Positions 15,509-23,757 of a DNA stretch of 53,895 bases are shown here, piece by piece. The first letter of the stretch is position 1; each line of letters opens with the position of its first letter. Made by a program: the position numbers and the translations under genes. Where the stretch lies: NCBI RefSeq assembly GCF_014654725.1, contig NZ_JACVZV010000018.1, positions 313,699 through 367,593 on the forward strand. Direction: 5' to 3'. This DNA comes from Vulcanococcus sp. Clear-D1 (GTDB taxonomy: Bacteria; Cyanobacteriota; Cyanobacteriia; PCC-6307; Cyanobiaceae). The notes below the pieces were generated by a model. The model searched no databases, had not been told where the DNA came from, and saw only the letters and a program-made list of their open reading frames with translations.

Positions 15509-15581
<73 letters not shown>

Positions 15582-15908
15582 TGGTTTGAGGGTCGAAGCT
15601 GATCGATCAGCGCGCAAAAAGCGCGCAAAACACTCTGTTGCTGGTGTTGTTCGGGAAGCCCTACCGCTACATCTGGCGCTGACTTGCCCTAGTTTGACTT
15701 GGTCAACCGACGACCACAGCTTCTGATCAGGGCGTGCTCCCAAGCCCCAGAGGTTTACAAGCGATGGATACGGCCTTGCTGCAGGACCATCGGCTCAAGG
15801 GAAGAGTGACTCAGCAAGGTTCTTCGGGGTTGGCAAGCCGAGGGGAGACGCCGAACGGAAGACAAGCGCCGGGAGTGGAAAGACCGGCAGCCCTCCTGTT
15901 TGTTCGGT
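15582..15908. other. Island left end, non-coding
   Basis: 327 bp between attL and the HTH gene. It contains the tandem 11-bp repeats at 15611-15631 and GC-rich sequence with short open frames (for example 15734-15970) that look non-coding and overlap the HTH gene in another frame. It probably holds recombination-protein binding sites and the promoter of the plus-strand operon. Confidence 0.6.
15611..15631 (+). repeat. Tandem 11-bp repeats inside attL (putative arm-type sites)
   Basis: Two tandem units, CGCGCAAAAAG and CGCGCAAAAC, begin 30 bp inside attL. The same pair of units in the same orientation occurs at 23602-23620 near attR. A spacing of 11 bp places them on one face of the helix, as for arm-type Int or Xis binding sites. 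Confidence 0.6.
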
Positions 15909-16151
15909 ATGAACTATTCGACTTCCTGGGCGCCTCAGCCAGAGGCCGCGGCCAAGTTGCACGTATCTGAGCGCACGCTCGTTCGTTGGCGTGCGTCTAA
16001 TTTTCTTAAGCAAGGGAAGCATTGGCGCCGTGCCTTGCCTTCCGCTCGGGCTCGTGTGCTTTACAACATTGAGCAATGCGAGAAAGACGTAGTAAAAGCA
16101 TGCTCTCGTGATGCATCATTGCTTGAGCGGGATTTGCATCTTGTTCGTTAG
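15909..16151 (+). CDS. Small HTH protein, putative excisionase/regulator
   Basis: 80 residues from the ATG at 15909 (MNYSTSW); an in-frame TTG at 15900 is less likely. Residues 12-40 (EAAAKLHVSERTLVRWRASNFLKQGKHW) form a winged-helix/MerR-like HTH of the kind found in excisionases and in small picocyanobacterial island proteins. A Cys and acidic residues follow in the C-terminal helix. As the first gene inside attL it is placed to control excision or the operon behind it. Confidence 0.75.
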   Translation: MNYSTSWAPQPEAAAKLHVSERTLVRWRASNFLKQGKHWRRALPSARARVLYNIEQCEKDVVKACSRDASLLERDLHLVR

Positions 16152-16173: not shown

Positions 16174-16362
16174 ATGCATGGCTATGGCAATAACGGCATG
16201 AAAGACAATCTTGGTGAACCTATTGGTACTCGCTATCTTCCTGAGCAGCTAAAGCTCATTGAAGAGGCGGCCGTGGCCTTGAAAATCCAACGCTGCGAAA
16301 TCATCAGGACTGGCGCCGCCATCTACGCCAAGCAGCTTTTAGGCAAGATTTATAGCAACTAA
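16174..16362 (+). CDS. Small ribbon-helix-helix-like protein
   Basis: 62 residues (or 54 from ATG 16198, MKDNLGEP). The pattern of a short strand (GTRYLPEQLKLIEEAA) followed by two helices (EIIRTGAAIYAKQLL) resembles RHH DNA-binding proteins such as plasmid copy-control or antitoxin proteins. It lies between the HTH gene (22 bp) and the helicase gene, so it may repress the replication operon. Function is inferred from shape only. Confidence 0.6.
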   Translation: MHGYGNNGMKDNLGEPIGTRYLPEQLKLIEEAAVALKIQRCEIIRTGAAIYAKQLLGKIYSN

Positions 16363-16424: not shown

Positions 16425-17837
16425 ATGGAAGATTCAGCATTTGACCTAGATGAAATGATGGCCTCTTTCCAAGCCTCCGAGCCCTCCGAACCCTCCTTGC
16501 CAGAGTCAGTGAGGGAAGGACAGATTGCAATTGAGGCTTTCAAAAAGGATGTAGAGGCTGTAGTCAGTAACGACAGCCTTAAGCAATTAGACAGGCTTCC
16601 AATCCTGCGTCAGTTAAAGGACAAATACAACCTTAGGCTTCATGACAGCGACCTGCGCAAGATGATGCACGATGCGCGACGTAAAGGCCGCGCAGCTTAT
16701 GAGCCAATTACAAGCGGACGTAAGCTGAAACGTGCCAAAAGCAAGTGGCTATGGGAAGGTCTGATTATGGACGGACAAATTAATATCTTCATGGCTCTTG
16801 CCAAAACTGGTAAAACACTGCTTGTTCTGCAGTTTATGGCTGCATTGATGAATGGAGAGGAAAGTTTCCTTGGGAGGAAACTTTCTGAGCAGAATCGTCG
16901 TCGCCATATTTTGATTTGTGGTCCAGATATGAATGAAGCTGACTGGGCTGAATGCTTAGATACGTCCGGCCTTCTCATTGATGATGAATTAGTAGGTGAT
17001 GAGCGGATTGAGCTTTTGACTGCCGAAGATGTTTTTAGTTTGGATGATGATGGCATTGACTTTATTGCTCGCAAAGCGCAGCAGTACCCAGGGCTAATTG
17101 TTTTGCTTGATAGCTACACCAAGGCCATGGAAGGCATGGGCTATCAAGATAAAGACACGAGTTATGGCGATCCTTTGTCTGCTTTAGCTGATGCTGTGGC
17201 TCCCCATGGGGCCACAGTCATAGTCATTCATCATGTGAGTAAAGGTAATCGCAACGCCAGTCCCGTGTTGGCGGGTCGCGGATCAATGCGTATGGCCGAA
17301 ATTGCTTCTTGGCTGGTCAAGCTTCAATTCTTAAAAGAGGAATCTGAAGATTCCTCTTCTGACGGTTTAATTACTGGCCCTCGCAAAATGACTGCTATTG
17401 GCCGTGGCCGTTCAAATGAGCTTGTAGCTGAAATGGATGGCAATGGACAGTGGACGAATGGTCAAGCCTTAGATTTAGTACTTCGGCAAATGGAAGAAGA
17501 GCAGCAGAAGGCTGCTCTTCTTAACAGCCTCAATGATCGTCAAAAAGAAGTATTGAAGATCTTGAAGGCTGAATGGTGCGATGGAGAAAAGTCCACTGTT
17601 GAGATGGTCGCCGGGAGGTTGTTTGGGGGGCCTCCAAATGAAGACAGCAAGCGGAAAGCTCGGGCAACACTCGATCAGTTGAAGGAGAAGGGTTTGGTCG
17701 ACAAGGAAATTCTCATTGAAGAGTGTAGGCAATTCACTGTGTATTGGCCAATTGAGGATGTTCAGGCGGAGGCTTCGGAGGGTCCGGAGGCTTCCAGGCT
17801 AAAAGCTATCGACGAGGACTCTGACTGTCCTTTCTGA
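16425..17837 (+). CDS. RepA-like hexameric helicase (AAA_25/RecA-fold) of the island
   Basis: 470 residues. The RecA-fold core has a Walker A variant ALAKTGKT (124-131), Walker B LIVLLDS (224-230, Asp229), paired His269-His270 in IHHVSKG, and GRGS at 284-287 at the sensor position. This is the pattern of the plasmid RepA/AAA_25 helicases that start replication of plasmids, satellites and prophage remnants. The N-terminal about 110 residues are a charged linker and a small helical domain; residues 375-455 look like a winged helix (EVLKILKAEW...VDKEILIEECRQF). No primase domain is present. Its codon use is AT-rich. Periodic CGGAGG repeats encode ASEPSEPSLP at the start and AEASEGPEASR at the end. 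Confidence 0.8.
   Translation: MEDSAFDLDEMMASFQASEPSEPSLPESVREGQIAIEAFKKDVEAVVSNDSLKQLDRLPILRQLKDKYNLRLHDSDLRKMMHDARRKGRAAYEPITSGRKLKRAKSKWLWEGLIMDGQINIFMALAKTGKTLLVLQFMAALMNGEESFLGRKLSEQNRRRHILICGPDMNEADWAECLDTSGLLIDDELVGDERIELLTAEDVFSLDDDGIDFIARKAQQYPGLIVLLDSYTKAMEGMGYQDKDTSYGDPLSALADAVAPHGATVIVIHHVSKGNRNASPVLAGRGSMRMAEIASWLVKLQFLKEESEDSSSDGLITGPRKMTAIGRGRSNELVAEMDGNGQWTNGQALDLVLRQMEEEQQKAALLNSLNDRQKEVLKILKAEWCDGEKSTVEMVAGRLFGGPPNEDSKRKARATLDQLKEKGLVDKEILIEECRQFTVYWPIEDVQAEASEGPEASRLKAIDEDSDCPF
16473..16499 (-). repeat. CGGAGG 9-bp-period repeats, cluster 1 (inverted)
   Basis: Three tandem 9-mers GCCTCCGAG, CCCTCCGAA and CCCTCCTTG, read on the minus strand as CGGAGG-type units. They lie inside the first 75 bases of the helicase gene and have the opposite orientation to clusters 2 and 3. 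Confidence 0.6.
17766..17797 (+). repeat. CGGAGG 9-bp-period repeats, cluster 2
   Basis: Tandem units CGGAGGCTT, CGGAGGGTC and CGGAGGCTT at the 3' end of the helicase gene, where they encode EASEGPEAS. Same orientation as cluster 3. Confidence 0.6.
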
Positions 17838-17919
17838 AGACGATCAAGTAGGTGGTGATAGTGGTGTCGATGATTACGACTCCACTATCAGGGATAAGAA
17901 CAGCTTAAAGATAGTTGGG

Positions 17920-17958
17920 GGGCTTCAGGATGCTTCGGAGGGTGGTGCGGAGGGTTTT
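17920..17958 (+). repeat. CGGAGG repeats, cluster 3 (non-coding)
   Basis: GGGCTTCAGGATGCTTCGGAGGGT followed by TGCGGAGGGT and a T-run, in the 220-bp gap after the helicase gene. Because it lies outside coding sequence, the repeat is not kept only for its peptide product. Confidence 0.5.
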
Positions 17959-18057: not shown

Positions 18058-19449
18058 ATGCACTCTCCGCATAGCAAATGGATTCACGACGAGATAGAGC
18101 TTCCTTGCCTTTCAGGAGGCCTGGACCCAAATTCGGGACCTTGGGCCTACCGAGGAGAAGAACATACTTATTCGCCAATAGACGCTCCCGGCGGCATCTG
18201 GCACTACGATAATCGTGGAATAAGAGTAGTTGATAAAGGGCCAGATTTTATCCATCTCGAGACCATTTTCCTCAAGAATGAAATCTCGCGTCGAATTAGG
18301 CTTGAGGATATTGCCGCTTTCGATGTATCTTCGGATCAAGGCGAATACATTCAGAGATCCGTCGTCAGCGAGAACTGCCCCATCTGGCTTTCGCGAGTCA
18401 ACCCTTATCCGACTCTCTTTCTAAGTTTTTATATTTCATACCTCGTACGCGACATAGGCAGAGCCATAGTTGATTTGCATCCTGAAGTTTTAACGGGAGA
18501 AAAGTTTGTAGACGGAAGCAGTTGGTCTTCTCGCGAGACAATATGGATCAACAGACGAAAAAGAGGGGTTGTTGTGCAGCCCGGACCCGAGTGGTTTTCC
18601 GTTGATCGCCCCGAAGAGCCATATTCAGATCTCGGCATGACTGGGGAGCTGGCGTCCGGGGTGTCACGCATAGTTGCCAAGCTCATCAGAGATTCATCCG
18701 TTCCTGGACTAAAGTCTAAGCTTTTTGAGCTATTTCCGGAGTACTGGGAGAAACTTGCTTATAACTTGAGGATCTACAGCATTCGCGATCAGCATCTACC
18801 GCAAGGTGCGCCGTGGTTTTCTCTTGGTGCAACCAACTGCTTTGAAACAGTTAGATTCCATGCCTTTCATGCTAAGGATCTTTATTTGTCAGCAGAAGCT
18901 GCTTTCGACAGGGAGCTAATTCATCAATATGCAGATGCCTCTTGGGAATTAGCAGAAAAGCTTCTGGTGCTAAAAGAAGTTATCCAAAAGACCAAGGAAG
19001 AAAACTGTCTCGACAAGACTAAGGTGGGCAGATTTGCGATAGCCTGTCGCTTTGCACAAGGCGCAAGGGAGCGCATAAGGAAAGTTCAAGGAAAGGAGTA
19101 TCGCGAGTCTTTTGATAGCGCTTCGTGGATCCAAGCCTATGGAGATATCATTGCTGACAAAATTCTAGAATTTCAAAACAATAATCATGGAGCTCTCTTT
19201 CATGTAGACCATATTGTTCCTCTTGCCGCGTTGCCGCGGGAGAGCTGGAGGACCCATGAATCTCTTGCATGGCATCCATCTAATCTTCAGATCTTGACTG
19301 CAGAAGAGAATGTAAGCAAGAGTTCCTCGTATCTAGGCAGGCGTCTTACTTATAAGAATTATGATGAGTCAATTGGCGCGCAAGCCCTTGAAGACTTGAT
19401 TCGGCGCCATCGTTTATACATGCAGGATTCAGAGGGAGGCAGTGCCTAG
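18058..19449 (+). CDS. Island cargo protein with C-terminal HNH/HNN nuclease motif
   Basis: 463 residues of AT-rich coding sequence. The last 85 residues hold an HNH-like core: HVDHIVPLA (Asp384-His385), then HPSNLQIL (Asn409) and EENVSKS (Asn418, Lys421). The final His of the classical motif is Asn, as in HNN variants. No Cys knuckle is visible. The first about 300 residues match no family I recognise; they contain beta-rich sequence (residues 30-110) and a helical part (230-350). The gene is in the usual cargo position of such islands, after the replication gene. A role in defence or in competition with other mobile DNA is plausible but unproven. Confidence 0.75.
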   Translation: MHSPHSKWIHDEIELPCLSGGLDPNSGPWAYRGEEHTYSPIDAPGGIWHYDNRGIRVVDKGPDFIHLETIFLKNEISRRIRLEDIAAFDVSSDQGEYIQRSVVSENCPIWLSRVNPYPTLFLSFYISYLVRDIGRAIVDLHPEVLTGEKFVDGSSWSSRETIWINRRKRGVVVQPGPEWFSVDRPEEPYSDLGMTGELASGVSRIVAKLIRDSSVPGLKSKLFELFPEYWEKLAYNLRIYSIRDQHLPQGAPWFSLGATNCFETVRFHAFHAKDLYLSAEAAFDRELIHQYADASWELAEKLLVLKEVIQKTKEENCLDKTKVGRFAIACRFAQGARERIRKVQGKEYRESFDSASWIQAYGDIIADKILEFQNNNHGALFHVDHIVPLAALPRESWRTHESLAWHPSNLQILTAEENVSKSSSYLGRRLTYKNYDESIGAQALEDLIRRHRLYMQDSEGGSA

Positions 19450-19658
19450 TAATGACTGCTTGCATGTTTAGTGCATGCAGAGCCTCCTCTCGGGCGCACT
19501 TCTGAATTGTGCGACTCGCCCTCACGGCGGCAATACAGGCAAGTCTTCGTCGTTGCGATGTGCACATTTAGGCCAGTATCATGAAGTCGCATTCCAATTG
19601 AAAGAGGTTATGCATCATCTCGCTTAGGTGCTATTCCGTGTTATTGCTCTGGAAGCGC

Positions 19659-20342
19659 TTAGCTAATGCCGAGGCGGGTGATCATCCTTTTGATCTGAGT
19701 TGGGCTCAGTGGCTGACCATTACGCGTAAGGAATCCGGCACCAGCAAGGCCACTTGCCATTTCACGCAAGGTGCTGCCCTTAATTACCATTGCTTCCAGA
19801 ATTGGACGGACGCGCTCAGCACTATCTGTGGCCCGTTGCTTGGCCGCTTCATTGCTTTTGATGGTGCCGGGCCTCACGCCACCCAGTTGCACGCCACGGG
19901 CCTTTGCAACGGCCAGACCGGCCTTTGTGCGCTGACTGATCCGTCGGGCCTCAAATTGGGCGAAGGCGGCCATTTGATTGATGAACAGCTCGCCTTCAGC
20001 GGTGGCGGGATCGACGTCGGGGAAGTCAGCGAACAGCAGCCCCCCAAAGCCGTTGCGCTCGGTTTCCTTCACCAAGCCGGCGATCAGCTCCACGTCACGG
20101 GCCAGGCGATCCAGCTTTGCCACGCATAACACCGCCTTGCGCCTGCGGGCTTCAGCCAGCGCCGCCTTGAGCTGCGGGCGATCCGCCCTGCGCCCCGATT
20201 CAACCTCGGTGAACTGGCCCACCAGGTTGTGACCCAGGCGCTGCAGCAGGGCCTCCACCGCCACCTGTTGAGCTTCCAGCCCGTAGCCACTCTCACCCTG
20301 GCGACTGGTTGAAACCCGGAAATAAGCGACCACCTCAGCCAT
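19659..20342 (-). CDS. Small serine recombinase (resolvase/invertase family)
   Basis: 227 residues. The catalytic domain starts with AYFRVSTSRQGESGYGLEAQ (nucleophile Ser11) and has the YFRVST, AKLDRLARDV and AAFAQFEARRISQRTKAGL motifs; a C-terminal HTH follows (TLREMASGLAGAGFLTRNG, then PTQIKRMITRLG). It catalyses DNA inversion or resolution through a Ser-DNA intermediate. Its GC content is clearly higher than that of its island neighbours and like the chromosome, which suggests a different history from the HNH and helicase genes. Candidate recombination sites lie in the 476-bp gap upstream. Confidence 0.92.
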   Translation of the reverse strand: MAEVVAYFRVSTSRQGESGYGLEAQQVAVEALLQRLGHNLVGQFTEVESGRRADRPQLKAALAEARRRKAVLCVAKLDRLARDVELIAGLVKETERNGFGGLLFADFPDVDPATAEGELFINQMAAFAQFEARRISQRTKAGLAVAKARGVQLGGVRPGTIKSNEAAKQRATDSAERVRPILEAMVIKGSTLREMASGLAGAGFLTRNGQPLSPTQIKRMITRLGIS

Positions 20343-20818: not shown

Positions 20819-21187
20819 TCAAGGCCTCAGCTCCCCCCCCCCGCATCGGTGACCCTTACCGCCTAGTTCTTTCTGATTTCTTCCAAATATGCCAAGACCC
20901 TTGCAAACAACAGAACGGCATCTGCCGCCACCTGCATAACCGTATCCAGCGGGGCACTGATTACCAACCTCGGACAGCAAGCCAGGCCTATTTGTCTGGT
21001 CGATCCGTATGTTAGTTGTATTCTCCTTTGATGCTTCTCCAGAGAGCGTCTTGACGCACCCCGCATAGTCAACAGCCTTAAGGCATGAATCGTGATATGG
21101 AGGTAGAGGAGTTGCGGTGCTCGCTGGAAGAGAGACAGTAATCAAAAAAGGAACGAGAAAAAGCCCTTTTGCATTGAGGAGTTTCAT
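20819..21187 (-). CDS. Secreted small Cys-rich protein of the island
   Basis: 122 residues. The first about 25 residues (MKLLNAKGLFLVPFLITVSLPASTA) are a typical Sec signal peptide ending at an A-x-A-like site. The mature part has six Cys (DSCLKA, AGCVKT, NQCPAGYGYAGGGRC, VVCKG, HRC), so disulfide bonds are likely. It resembles short secreted picocyanobacterial proteins with C-L-K-A...C-V-K-T, whose function I do not know. The last codons contain a run of ten G (20833-20842), so slippage would change the C-terminus. Confidence 0.65.
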   Translation of the reverse strand: MKLLNAKGLFLVPFLITVSLPASTATPLPPYHDSCLKAVDYAGCVKTLSGEASKENTTNIRIDQTNRPGLLSEVGNQCPAGYGYAGGGRCRSVVCKGLGIFGRNQKELGGKGHRCGGGELRP

Positions 21188-21482: not shown

Positions 21483-21926
21483 TCAGTGGGGCTTCCATTG
21501 ACCACATATATCTGTTGCTAATGTTGTCGGCCACAGCCCTTTCTTGTACGTAACTTGTTCGGATCTGATTACAAACATATCCTGTTCGGCAATTTCTCTC
21601 CTGATTGCGGCCACTTGCTCCTCCACGCTTCTGATCTCCTGTTGGATTGCCTTGATTTCATCAAAGCACTTGCCTGTATTCCCGGGGTAGCGATTTAATC
21701 TCTGTAGTTCTTCTAAGAAACTTGTAGCATTTTCCAGGCTCCTGCGAAGATCTAAAAGCGCTGGATTCTCAACTTGAACCGGCACGAGAGCGATGGCATC
21801 TTCTGAGCCAATGGGTGGATTGAAATGACACGTGCCATTAGCGTATTCTCCTCTACTGCTCTCATCAGAGTGCCAGAAGGCACAATCTGCACATGGCGCC
21901 AAAGTACTATGTGATATTGAGTCCAT
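21483..21926 (-). CDS. Small protein with split Cys pairs and a coiled coil
   Basis: 147 residues. CADCAFWH and GTCHFNPP near the N-terminus and the C-terminal WPTTLATDICGQWKPH form the Cys pattern of small phage and mobile-element proteins of the type C-x-x-C...G-x-C-x-x-x-P...W-P...D-x-C-G-x-[FW]. Between the Cys regions lies a long coiled-coil segment (about residues 55-115). Metal binding is likely and function unknown. It is the last gene of a minus-strand group that begins with the integrase. Confidence 0.65.
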   Translation of the reverse strand: MDSISHSTLAPCADCAFWHSDESSRGEYANGTCHFNPPIGSEDAIALVPVQVENPALLDLRRSLENATSFLEELQRLNRYPGNTGKCFDEIKAIQQEIRSVEEQVAAIRREIAEQDMFVIRSEQVTYKKGLWPTTLATDICGQWKPH

Positions 21927-21955: not shown

Positions 21956-22324
21956 TTAGCGCGGATCGTCTATGTATTGATCAATCTTTTTCGCAGTCTC
22001 TATGTAATTCTGGATGTCGTCTGCCAAGTCGACTATCTTTCTGAACGCATTTCGATTTTCAATAAAGAAAGAAAACTCGATATTGCCAAAAAACCGTTCG
22101 CTAAAATCAGGATTCATGGCGTATCTCTTGGCTAGCTTCTCTATGACTTCGTCTGATAGATAATCGCTTGCAGCTTCCTCGGTGTATGGAGGCTGAAAAA
22201 ACTCTTTCGGCTTGGGTTCAGCGCAGAGGTGCTCTACTGCCTCGATTGAGAGTTCATGGTCTCGGCATTCTTCTTCGGTATTGAATTCGCGATTGTCTCT
22301 ATCCGAGTAATAGCGTTTGTACAT
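21956..22324 (-). CDS. Small acidic island protein of unknown function
   Basis: 122 residues, charged and Tyr/Phe-rich, without signal peptide or membrane segment. The start YYSDRDNREFNTEEECRDHE has the F-x-T-x-x-x-C-x-x-H-E pattern seen in small phage-type proteins. It lies 72 bp after the integrase stop and 29 bp before the next gene on the same strand. Not recognised. Confidence 0.6.
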   Translation of the reverse strand: MYKRYYSDRDNREFNTEEECRDHELSIEAVEHLCAEPKPKEFFQPPYTEEAASDYLSDEVIEKLAKRYAMNPDFSERFFGNIEFSFFIENRNAFRKIVDLADDIQNYIETAKKIDQYIDDPR

Positions 22325-22396: not shown

Positions 22397-23608
22397 CTAG
22401 TCGTCGTATGGAGTCTCTTCTGAGGCCCATGCGTAATGCTGTTGATGAGTGGTTATTGAGTGCCCCATTGCAAGGCAGATAGTATTAAGGCGTAGGCCCC
22501 TTCTGTGTGCGCGAAAACTGTAAGTATCCCGAAGCGCACCCGGCTTGAGACTTAGCCTCATCTTTGTTTCGTATTTCTCGTTAAGACTCTGCCAGTAGCT
22601 CATCCGGGCGAGTCTATTGTTCCAAGCCTGCGGGTTTGTATTTGGAAGTGGTAGCTTCCCTTGGCGCATAGCTTCGACCAGGTCTCCCCACAATGCTGAG
22701 GATCCTTCGGGTGGCAACGCCCTCAGCCACCGGGGTTTTGTTCGGTCATTGCCTGATATTTTCTCGTATGCGCAGTACATCTGCCATCCTTTTGTTGGGT
22801 GTTCTCGCGGCTCGCAGTGCCAGGGTTCCTCCCTTCGGAGACCATAGGTGGCCACTAGAGCCACGTAGTTTGCCCATTCCGCACCATTCCTTCCTTTCCT
22901 GTTCTCTTCGAAAAGTCGTAGAACTTCCTCTTCTTCAAGATGAGCAAGGCTCTTCTTTTTGGCCGGTCTTCCTCTGATCTCTTTTAGTCTTTCTCTGGAC
23001 AGGAGCCAGCTTTTTGCTGGCGCTCCATGGTGTTCTGTTGCATACTCAAGAAAACGATTAATCGCAATACAGCATTTTTCTAGGGCTCTTGGCTTCTCTC
23101 GCCATTTTTCCGCTGTTTGTTCGGCTAGCTCGCCACCGTTTCTCGGTGGCTTTTTGCTGGAGAGTAGTTCAATGGCATAGTCGATGTAAGCCGCGTAATC
23201 TTCGCGGTATGTCTGTTCTTTGATCCTGTTTCCGGAGGAGAGTAGTCTGGCTCGGAATGCTGTTGCTGCTGCTTCCCATTGAATCCTTTCCAGCCTGTGG
23301 TTGTTGTTGGCAATTAGAGCTGCATCCCGCAGTTCGTACCCGTCGGTCACCAATGCAAATATGTTTCTAGTGCGAGCAAGGATGTCGCCGACATTTCCTC
23401 GCGACCAGTCGAAGGGCAGCGTGATTGTTCCCTTCGTGGCCTCTGTGCGGGCTTCGAGCCGCGCTTTCCCGCGATCTTCGCGAACTGTCCAGCCACTGCC
23501 CAGTGAGCTGCGCACGGAGGCTCTGAGCCCCCTCTCCCAGTCCGCTGCATTGGTGATTCGGGGCAGGGTAGTAGGTCTTGCGCTCGCTTCAGATTGGCAT
23601 TCGCGCAA
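22397..23608 (-). CDS. int: Tyrosine recombinase (island integrase)
   Basis: 403 residues. An N-terminal arm-binding part, a SAM-like core-binding domain (about 115-205) and a catalytic domain (from about 220) are visible. Catalytic residues: Arg258 in ATYGLRREE, Lys291 or nearby, Arg360 in GALRDTY, His383 in MGHS and Tyr392 in HYAW. The His of the H-x-x-R motif is replaced by Gly, which is tolerated in many cyanobacterial integrases. Translation starts at TTG 23608, or ATT 23611; an in-frame stop lies a few codons upstream. This start falls within the tandem 11-bp repeats, so Int binding there could repress its own gene. It lies about 105 bp from attR. Confidence 0.93.
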   Translation of the reverse strand: MRECQSEASARPTTLPRITNAADWERGLRASVRSSLGSGWTVREDRGKARLEARTEATKGTITLPFDWSRGNVGDILARTRNIFALVTDGYELRDAALIANNNHRLERIQWEAAATAFRARLLSSGNRIKEQTYREDYAAYIDYAIELLSSKKPPRNGGELAEQTAEKWREKPRALEKCCIAINRFLEYATEHHGAPAKSWLLSRERLKEIRGRPAKKKSLAHLEEEEVLRLFEENRKGRNGAEWANYVALVATYGLRREEPWHCEPREHPTKGWQMYCAYEKISGNDRTKPRWLRALPPEGSSALWGDLVEAMRQGKLPLPNTNPQAWNNRLARMSYWQSLNEKYETKMRLSLKPGALRDTYSFRAHRRGLRLNTICLAMGHSITTHQQHYAWASEETPYDD

Positions 23609-23713: not shown

Positions 23714-23757
23714 CCTTACAAGCAGGATGTCGCTGGTTCGAACCCGGCACCGGGCAT
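23714..23757 (+). repeat. attR core: 3' tRNA-Val fragment (44 bp)
   Basis: Identical to 15538-15581. It is the displaced 3' part of tRNA-Val from the anticodon loop onward; the 5' half is absent, so it is not a functional tRNA. The last base is the first base of the stop codon of the thioredoxin-like gene, read in antisense. Confidence 0.92.

Follow-up and report, generated by a model that had tools for sequence, protein, structure and literature searches.

The 463-aa protein encoded at positions 18058-19449 of the analysed DNA (a stretch of 53,895 nucleotides, hereafter the window) carries a C-terminal HNH nuclease domain behind a long N-terminal part without recognised family, and its gene is cargo of a mobile island integrated at a tRNA-Val gene. 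We regard a single-protein defence nuclease as the likeliest reading, which is held tentatively. Defence is the first guess because the nuclease domain, the variable cargo slot and the defence-type cargo in sister elements come together. The gene, its two parts and its surroundings in the window are as follows (evidence in brackets):

15509..15580, forward strand: tRNA-Val (TAC), integration site (ARAGORN; Rfam 72.2 bits)
15538..15581, forward strand: left att copy, 44 bp, 3' part of tRNA-Val (perfect direct repeat; empty sites in relatives)
15909..16151, forward strand: HTH protein, 80 aa, excisionase-like (HTH_17 1.4e-4, below its cut-off; phrog_539 excisionase 0.018; scanned from the start at 15900)
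16174..16362, forward strand: small ORF, 62 aa (no Pfam match)
16425..17837, forward strand: AAA_25 ATPase, replication-helicase-like, element backbone (Pfam PF13481 5.5e-17; phrog_30286 1.3e-54)
18058..19449, forward strand: gene of the 463-aa protein (ORF list and translation)
18058..19047, forward strand: residues 1-330, no recognised family and no confident fold (profile, homologue and structure searches)
19174..19365, forward strand: HNH nuclease domain, residues 373-436, with D384, H385, N409, N418 and K421 (Pfam PF07510 3.5e-5)
19659..20342, reverse strand: small serine recombinase, 227 aa (Pfam Resolvase 7e-32)
20819..21187, reverse strand: 122-aa ORF, possible signal peptide by eye (ORF list; Pfam and PHROGs scans)
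21483..21926, reverse strand: 147-aa ORF (ORF list; Pfam and PHROGs scans)
21956..22324, reverse strand: second 122-aa ORF (ORF list; Pfam and PHROGs scans)
22397..23608, reverse strand: tyrosine recombinase (integrase), 403 aa (weak profile matches, NF040815 1.8e-4, far below its cut-off, and Phage_integrase 0.16; adjoins the att copy)
23714..23757, forward strand: right att copy, 44 bp (perfect direct repeat; empty sites in relatives)

At each border of the island stands a perfect 44-bp copy of the 3' end of tRNA-Val; the two copies are 8,176 bp apart, and no such repeat is expected by chance. Its G+C content, determined by windows, is 0.46-0.59 compared to 0.64-0.71 outside. The tRNA-Val locus was matched in 22 of the 25 genus genomes (own genome included), and among nine relatives' loci tested, three (L163, L164, L167) represent the empty site, in which both window flanks are joined over one repeat copy. 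In L168 part of the right flank is found about 1.4 kb away, and in the other five loci the repeat alone was matched within the sequence examined. Moreover, in one relative (G102) the same tRNA-Val holds another element, of 17 kb, which is likewise flanked by the 44-bp repeat. The island is thereby confirmed as a mobile element at an integration hotspot with the 463-aa gene in it as cargo; the cargo position proposed by the initial annotation is borne out by the perfect repeats, the empty sites and the exchangeable cargo. Two further repeats were seen inside the island. A 16-nt GGAGGCTTCGGAGGGT-like repeat occurs in three copies at window positions 17768-17943, covering the 3' terminus of the ATPase gene together with the gap behind it, and a 17-nt inverted repeat (94%), which may be due to chance, surrounds the serine recombinase region (19528-19544 and 21668-21684).

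The open reading frame itself begins with ATG, is intact and is present as it had been annotated. In 300 mononucleotide shuffles of the island the longest stop-free stretch comprised 325 codons (mean 153), which makes an ORF of 463 codons unlikely to occur by chance. Its G+C content at the three codon positions (0.554/0.409/0.450) parallels that of the adjacent AAA gene (0.584/0.382/0.461). Hence, length and codon-position composition speak for a real coding sequence. The numbers of promoter-like sites (5 found, 7.6 in shuffles) and terminator-like sites (9 found, 9.1 in shuffles) are not above chance.

The nuclease core claimed for the C-terminus finds support in two profile collections. In Pfam, residues 373-436 match GmrSD_C (PF07510), the HNH domain of GmrD, with 24.1 bits against a cut-off of 23 (3.5e-5), and in PHROGs residues 336-425 match endonuclease VII (phrog_1035, 1e-7); the HNH family phrog_144 also matches the protein (8.4e-4). 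The protein displays the D-H...N...N active-site motif of HNH / His-Me finger nucleases with D384, H385, N409 and N418. When viral contigs were scanned with residues 367-453, using octamers such as FHVDHIVP and QILTAEEN for recruitment, 101 HNH relatives were found and 80 loci kept. A filter for the DH pattern and for redundancy was passed by 55 of these loci, and 48 were aligned, leaving out six short or truncated ones (L087, L123, L134, L138, L141, L144) as well as L124. Residues H382, D384, H385, I386, P388, N409, N418 and K421 are invariant in all 48 aligned relatives, whereby the identity of D384 and H385 is given by construction, since the row pattern contains DH, and that of N418 partly so through the search octamers. 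All five residues named in the initial annotation, including K421, are found at their positions. One departure is A404, where 47 of the 48 relatives have G. With this alignment AlphaFold2 predicted strands at residues 381-385 and 410-414 and a helix at 415-421 with moderate confidence (block pLDDT 54-88 over 381-420), an order that would be the one expected for a beta-beta-alpha core. Altogether, the assignment of the C-terminal approximately 100 residues to the HNH nucleases, and here to the phage endonuclease VII-like/GmrD type, is well supported, and judged from its active site the domain probably cuts DNA with the help of a metal ion. However, the HNH domain alone gives no pointer to defence, because the recruited relatives are viral-contig proteins without assigned role, whose frames were read as 120-350 aa in 74 out of 80 cases. 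The 463-aa protein exceeds 79 of the 80 recruited frames in length, and the single exception is a frame that was read past a stop.

Much less can be said about the N-terminal part. That the first 300 residues match nothing recognisable agrees with the profile searches: Pfam, PHROGs and NCBIfam gave nothing within residues 1-330 at E<=1, and the best match to PDB sequences for this part reached only E=1.1 (residues 167-252). None of the defence models of PADLOC-DB 2.0.0 was recognised in the protein, the best being PDC-M01B with 0.033 (residues 307-431), and the Walker A, DGQ, DGN and CxxC motifs looked for are absent. Five of the 80 HNH relatives show a short alignment that starts N-terminal of residue 223, in each case at an E value of 1.2 or above, and two alignments that span the HNH domain extend back to residues 223 and 262. 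Structure prediction and structure search, which were done with the whole protein, likewise gave no confident fold. Without alignment the mean pLDDT was 35; with the 48-relative alignment it was 53.5, with no residue at or above 90 and 112 residues at 70-90, and the values are below 50 at residues 24-121 and mostly below 70 up to about residue 290. The search of this model against the PDB returned no match at E<=0.001. Two matches in BFVD (about 1.7e-4) are regarded as artefacts in view of TM scores of 0.08-0.20 and an rmsd above 40. A further structure search found helical arrangements only, at about residues 253-347 with Z up to 9.3, which is unspecific for helical bundles; no nuclease appeared among the 50 structure matches listed, which excludes nothing. 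Any recognition domain in the N-terminal part would escape a model of such low quality.

Relatives of the entire protein were searched for in overlapping samples of 299, 386 and 368 genomes. In the own genome the whole protein matches only itself, without a second copy. Among the 299 genomes of the order (E<=1e-3), three gave a match, namely the protein itself and two that are HNH-only, and among the 386 genomes of the phylum (E<=0.1) there were 13, i.e. itself, eight at the HNH domain and four weak ones elsewhere. With residues 1-336 as query, the 368 genomes of the class yielded only the protein itself. From the phylum search, the HNH-region matches L002, L003 and L005 turned out to be HNH proteins on reading; L008 and L011 look like chance (low complexity or wrong frame). 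The matches outside the HNH domain (L006, L009, L012, L013, L014; tblastn on both strands) were judged as chance as well, being short segments within unrelated or stop-ridden frames, with L012 and L013 reaching about 1e-4 when each locus was the sole subject. Furthermore, two scans of genome contigs gave no convincing relative of the whole protein or its N-terminal part, nor did viral contigs give a convincing N-terminal relative when queried with the whole protein and residues 1-100, 101-200, 201-300 and 258-366. Phages gave one match only (0.2, residues 335-426) and plasmids none. The contig scans require exact octapeptides and detect close relatives only; given this insensitivity, the N-terminal part without identified relative is absence of evidence. 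In the accessible parts of the literature on HNH proteins and defence (including PMC10803314, PMC13092281, PMC4619093), compared by words and not by sequence, nothing evidently corresponds to the 463-aa protein. As far as the searches made can tell, the combination of the HNH domain with this N-terminal part is found nowhere else. The suggestion of a new family therefore finds no support, since no second member was found in the genomes, viral contigs, phages and plasmids searched, and a family of one member allows no conservation or neighbourhood test.

The element that carries the gene can be compared much more broadly. Integrase homologues occur in 132 of 251 family genomes (E<=1e-6) and ATPase homologues in 41 of 251 (E<=1e-12; own genome included in both cases). 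Of 22 fetched related regions, 19 contain the ATPase, 16 the integrase and 12 the HTH by tblastn, and 13 a tRNA by ARAGORN; these counts are not frequencies, because the regions were picked for holding integrase or ATPase. Some of the regions share one genome, and L060 overlaps L172. The 463-aa protein is absent from all 22 regions (tblastn, E<=1e-3), hence its gene does not belong to the backbone. The ORFs of at least 100 aa within 4.5 kb behind the ATPase were tallied mechanically, which gave 79 cargo ORFs from 18 elements (L077 left out), including spurious ORFs and probably host genes such as one glutamine synthetase. Element borders are fixed for the window and G102 only, and only in G102 (L172) is the cargo placed inside its element.

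This cargo is diverse. Behind the ATPase there is a SIR2-domain protein in L076 (5835-7601) that matches the PADLOC candidate family PDC-S65 with 2.5e-197, and a GIY-YIG (T5orf172) protein in L070 (5115-5726) that matches the candidate family PDC-S57 with 9.6e-72. Other elements carry an ArdC-like antirestriction protein (L063), GAPDH and MFS genes (L064, matched to the tally by eye) or a prohead protease-capsid protein (L059, 7724-9418) behind the ATPase, and a CRISPR-like array with a 29-nt repeat, about 62-nt spacing and dozens of units lies behind ATPase and integrase in L066 (2749-5091). A prohead protease-capsid protein is also present in L178 (4796-6448) and a capsid protein in L175 (29-688). 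The G102 element (L172, 682-17742) contains a phosphonate-type ABC transporter, a 2-hydroxyacid dehydrogenase which we take to be phosphite-dehydrogenase-like, an AAA ATPase and a small phrog_34910 protein. ATPase relatives exist on four viral contigs, one of which, L178, unites tRNA-Arg, HTH, ATPase, capsid and integrase. The varying cargo and such capsid-bearing relatives point to a phage-satellite-like backbone in which the slot behind the ATPase is a true cargo slot, and suggest that some relatives of the element are capsid-carrying satellites. Two kinds of matches were set aside: the PADLOC mad3/mad8 matches among the cargo represent an ABC transporter ATPase (L060), and a match to type I specificity proteins (1.9e-28), given by one of the 79 ORFs, was not counted as evidence, since those of the ORFs that were scanned singly did not show it. 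Beside another ATPase element, in L075 (3158-3841), there is a serine recombinase that shares 46% identity with the one in the window.

Comparisons with described systems place the protein and the island near several of them. With phage endonuclease VII-like / HNH proteins (phrog_1035) the protein shares the match over residues 336-425 and the core HVDHIVPL ... NLQILTAEEN; in contrast to it, the recruited relatives mostly read as 120-350 aa and give no convincing alignment to the N-terminal part. For GmrD the quartet D113, H114, N169 and N178 was predicted in the part of PMC4619093 available to us, and the C-terminal HNH domain of the GmrSD Type IV restriction enzymes (PF07510, DUF1524) shows the same E/D-H-N-N order. 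Membership in GmrSD was rejected, because there is no GmrS half, with neither DUF262 (Pfam up to E=1) nor the DGQQR motif as given in that part of the source. Regarding the island, the accessible part of PMC10872708 characterises tycheposons as elements of 4-200 kb that carry cargo, sit at tRNAs and have a tyrosine recombinase, and the island has this size, a border tRNA, cargo and a tyrosine recombinase, the latter via weak profile matches. What is accessible of PMC10187409 describes picocyanobacterial islands whose tyrosine integrase is unusual, lies upstream of tRNA-Phe or tRNA-Cys and often has a small serine recombinase in its vicinity. Compared by description, the island resembles the marine picocyanobacterial tRNA islands and tycheposons in its tyrosine recombinase, tRNA integration, variable cargo and nearby small serine recombinase, whereas its tRNA is tRNA-Val. 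Judged by these similarities, the host is probably a picocyanobacterium. Capsid-encoding phage satellites, named cfPICI in the part of PMC11389934 at hand, are resembled by L059 and L178 with integrase, HTH, AAA ATPase, capsid gene and a tRNA in the region; unlike them, the window copy has no recognised capsid gene, and neither capsid nor terminase genes were recognised by Pfam and PHROGs among its eight proteins scanned. According to the accessible part of PMC10803314, the small marine satellites called PICMIs have a hotspot in which defence systems are found.

How could the protein act? As accessory cargo of a small, tRNA-Val-integrated, phage-satellite-like element, it would act alone as a barrier against phage or other mobile DNA entering the cell: the N-terminal approximately 330 residues may recognise DNA or an infection signal, and the C-terminal HNH nuclease would then cut DNA with a metal ion. 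The target could be modified DNA, as in Type IV systems, or the nuclease might be switched on by infection. Scans of 7 to 8 island proteins recognised no methyltransferase, and this speaks more for a nuclease that depends on modification or is triggered by infection than for a classical restriction enzyme. The defence role put forward initially stands as circumstantial. It is backed by the SIR2 and GIY-YIG proteins that match PADLOC candidates among the 79 ORFs of 18 elements, and against it speak the weak PADLOC match of the protein itself (0.033) and the related elements that also carry cargo without defence match, such as the phosphonate-type transporter and capsid. As the whole protein has no homologue, no statistical link to defence islands can be drawn. 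The more far-reaching version, in which a new single-gene anti-phage family with a sensor or target-recognition region of approximately 330 residues controlling an endonuclease VII-like HNH domain would be spread by capsid-related tRNA satellites in cyanobacteria, appears doubtful to us.

Among the alternatives, the nuclease might serve the element itself, by helping to pack or mature its DNA or by cutting the genome of a helper phage. Some phage HNH proteins adjoin terminase and act in packaging, the HNH relatives are plentiful in viral contigs, with 101 found and 80 loci retained, and L059, L178 and L175 encode capsid proteins. However, no capsid or terminase was recognised among the eight island proteins scanned, the gene is missing from 22 of 22 related regions and the protein is longer than 79 of 80 recruited HNH frames, which makes us consider this role improbable. 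A selfish, free-standing homing-type endonuclease that spreads by cutting a target in other replicons would fit the fact that HNH endonucleases of the endonuclease VII-like sort are common in phage genomes and have relatives in viral contigs; but the gene interrupts no recognised gene, has no second copy in the own genome and none over its whole length in the overlapping samples of 299, 386 and 368 genomes, and we see it as quite unlikely.

Restriction enzymes typically have a recognition part fused to their nuclease, and a Type II enzyme whose partner methyltransferase resides elsewhere in the genome or was lost has likewise to be weighed. It gains some ground from methyltransferase-like matches in the own genome (PF01555 in two places, PF02384 in one), which are partial, weak and located in long frames, and on whose account an orphan Type II enzyme keeps a place among the explanations. 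These matches, however, lie at a great distance from the gene or on a different contig, PF00145 was not matched anywhere in the own genome, and the island is without recognised methyltransferase, so that we rate this explanation as very unlikely.

If the preferred reading as a defence nuclease is true, the protein adds a cyanobacterial example of a nuclease barrier that consists of one protein, genes for defence travel on this family of tRNA elements next to genes for nutrients, and the slot behind the AAA gene is a place to seek further systems. If it is false, the element family, of which capsid-carrying as well as cargo-carrying members occur within a single host family, is still a useful case of satellite-like islands.

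A minor observation concerns contig C18 of the own genome. A methyltransferase-like match (97016-97369 and 153109-153462) and an integrase homologue (139048-140268 and 195141-196361) each occur there twice with identical scores, and both pairs are 56,093 bp apart. Identical scores and equal spacing suggest a large duplication in the own genome or in its assembly.
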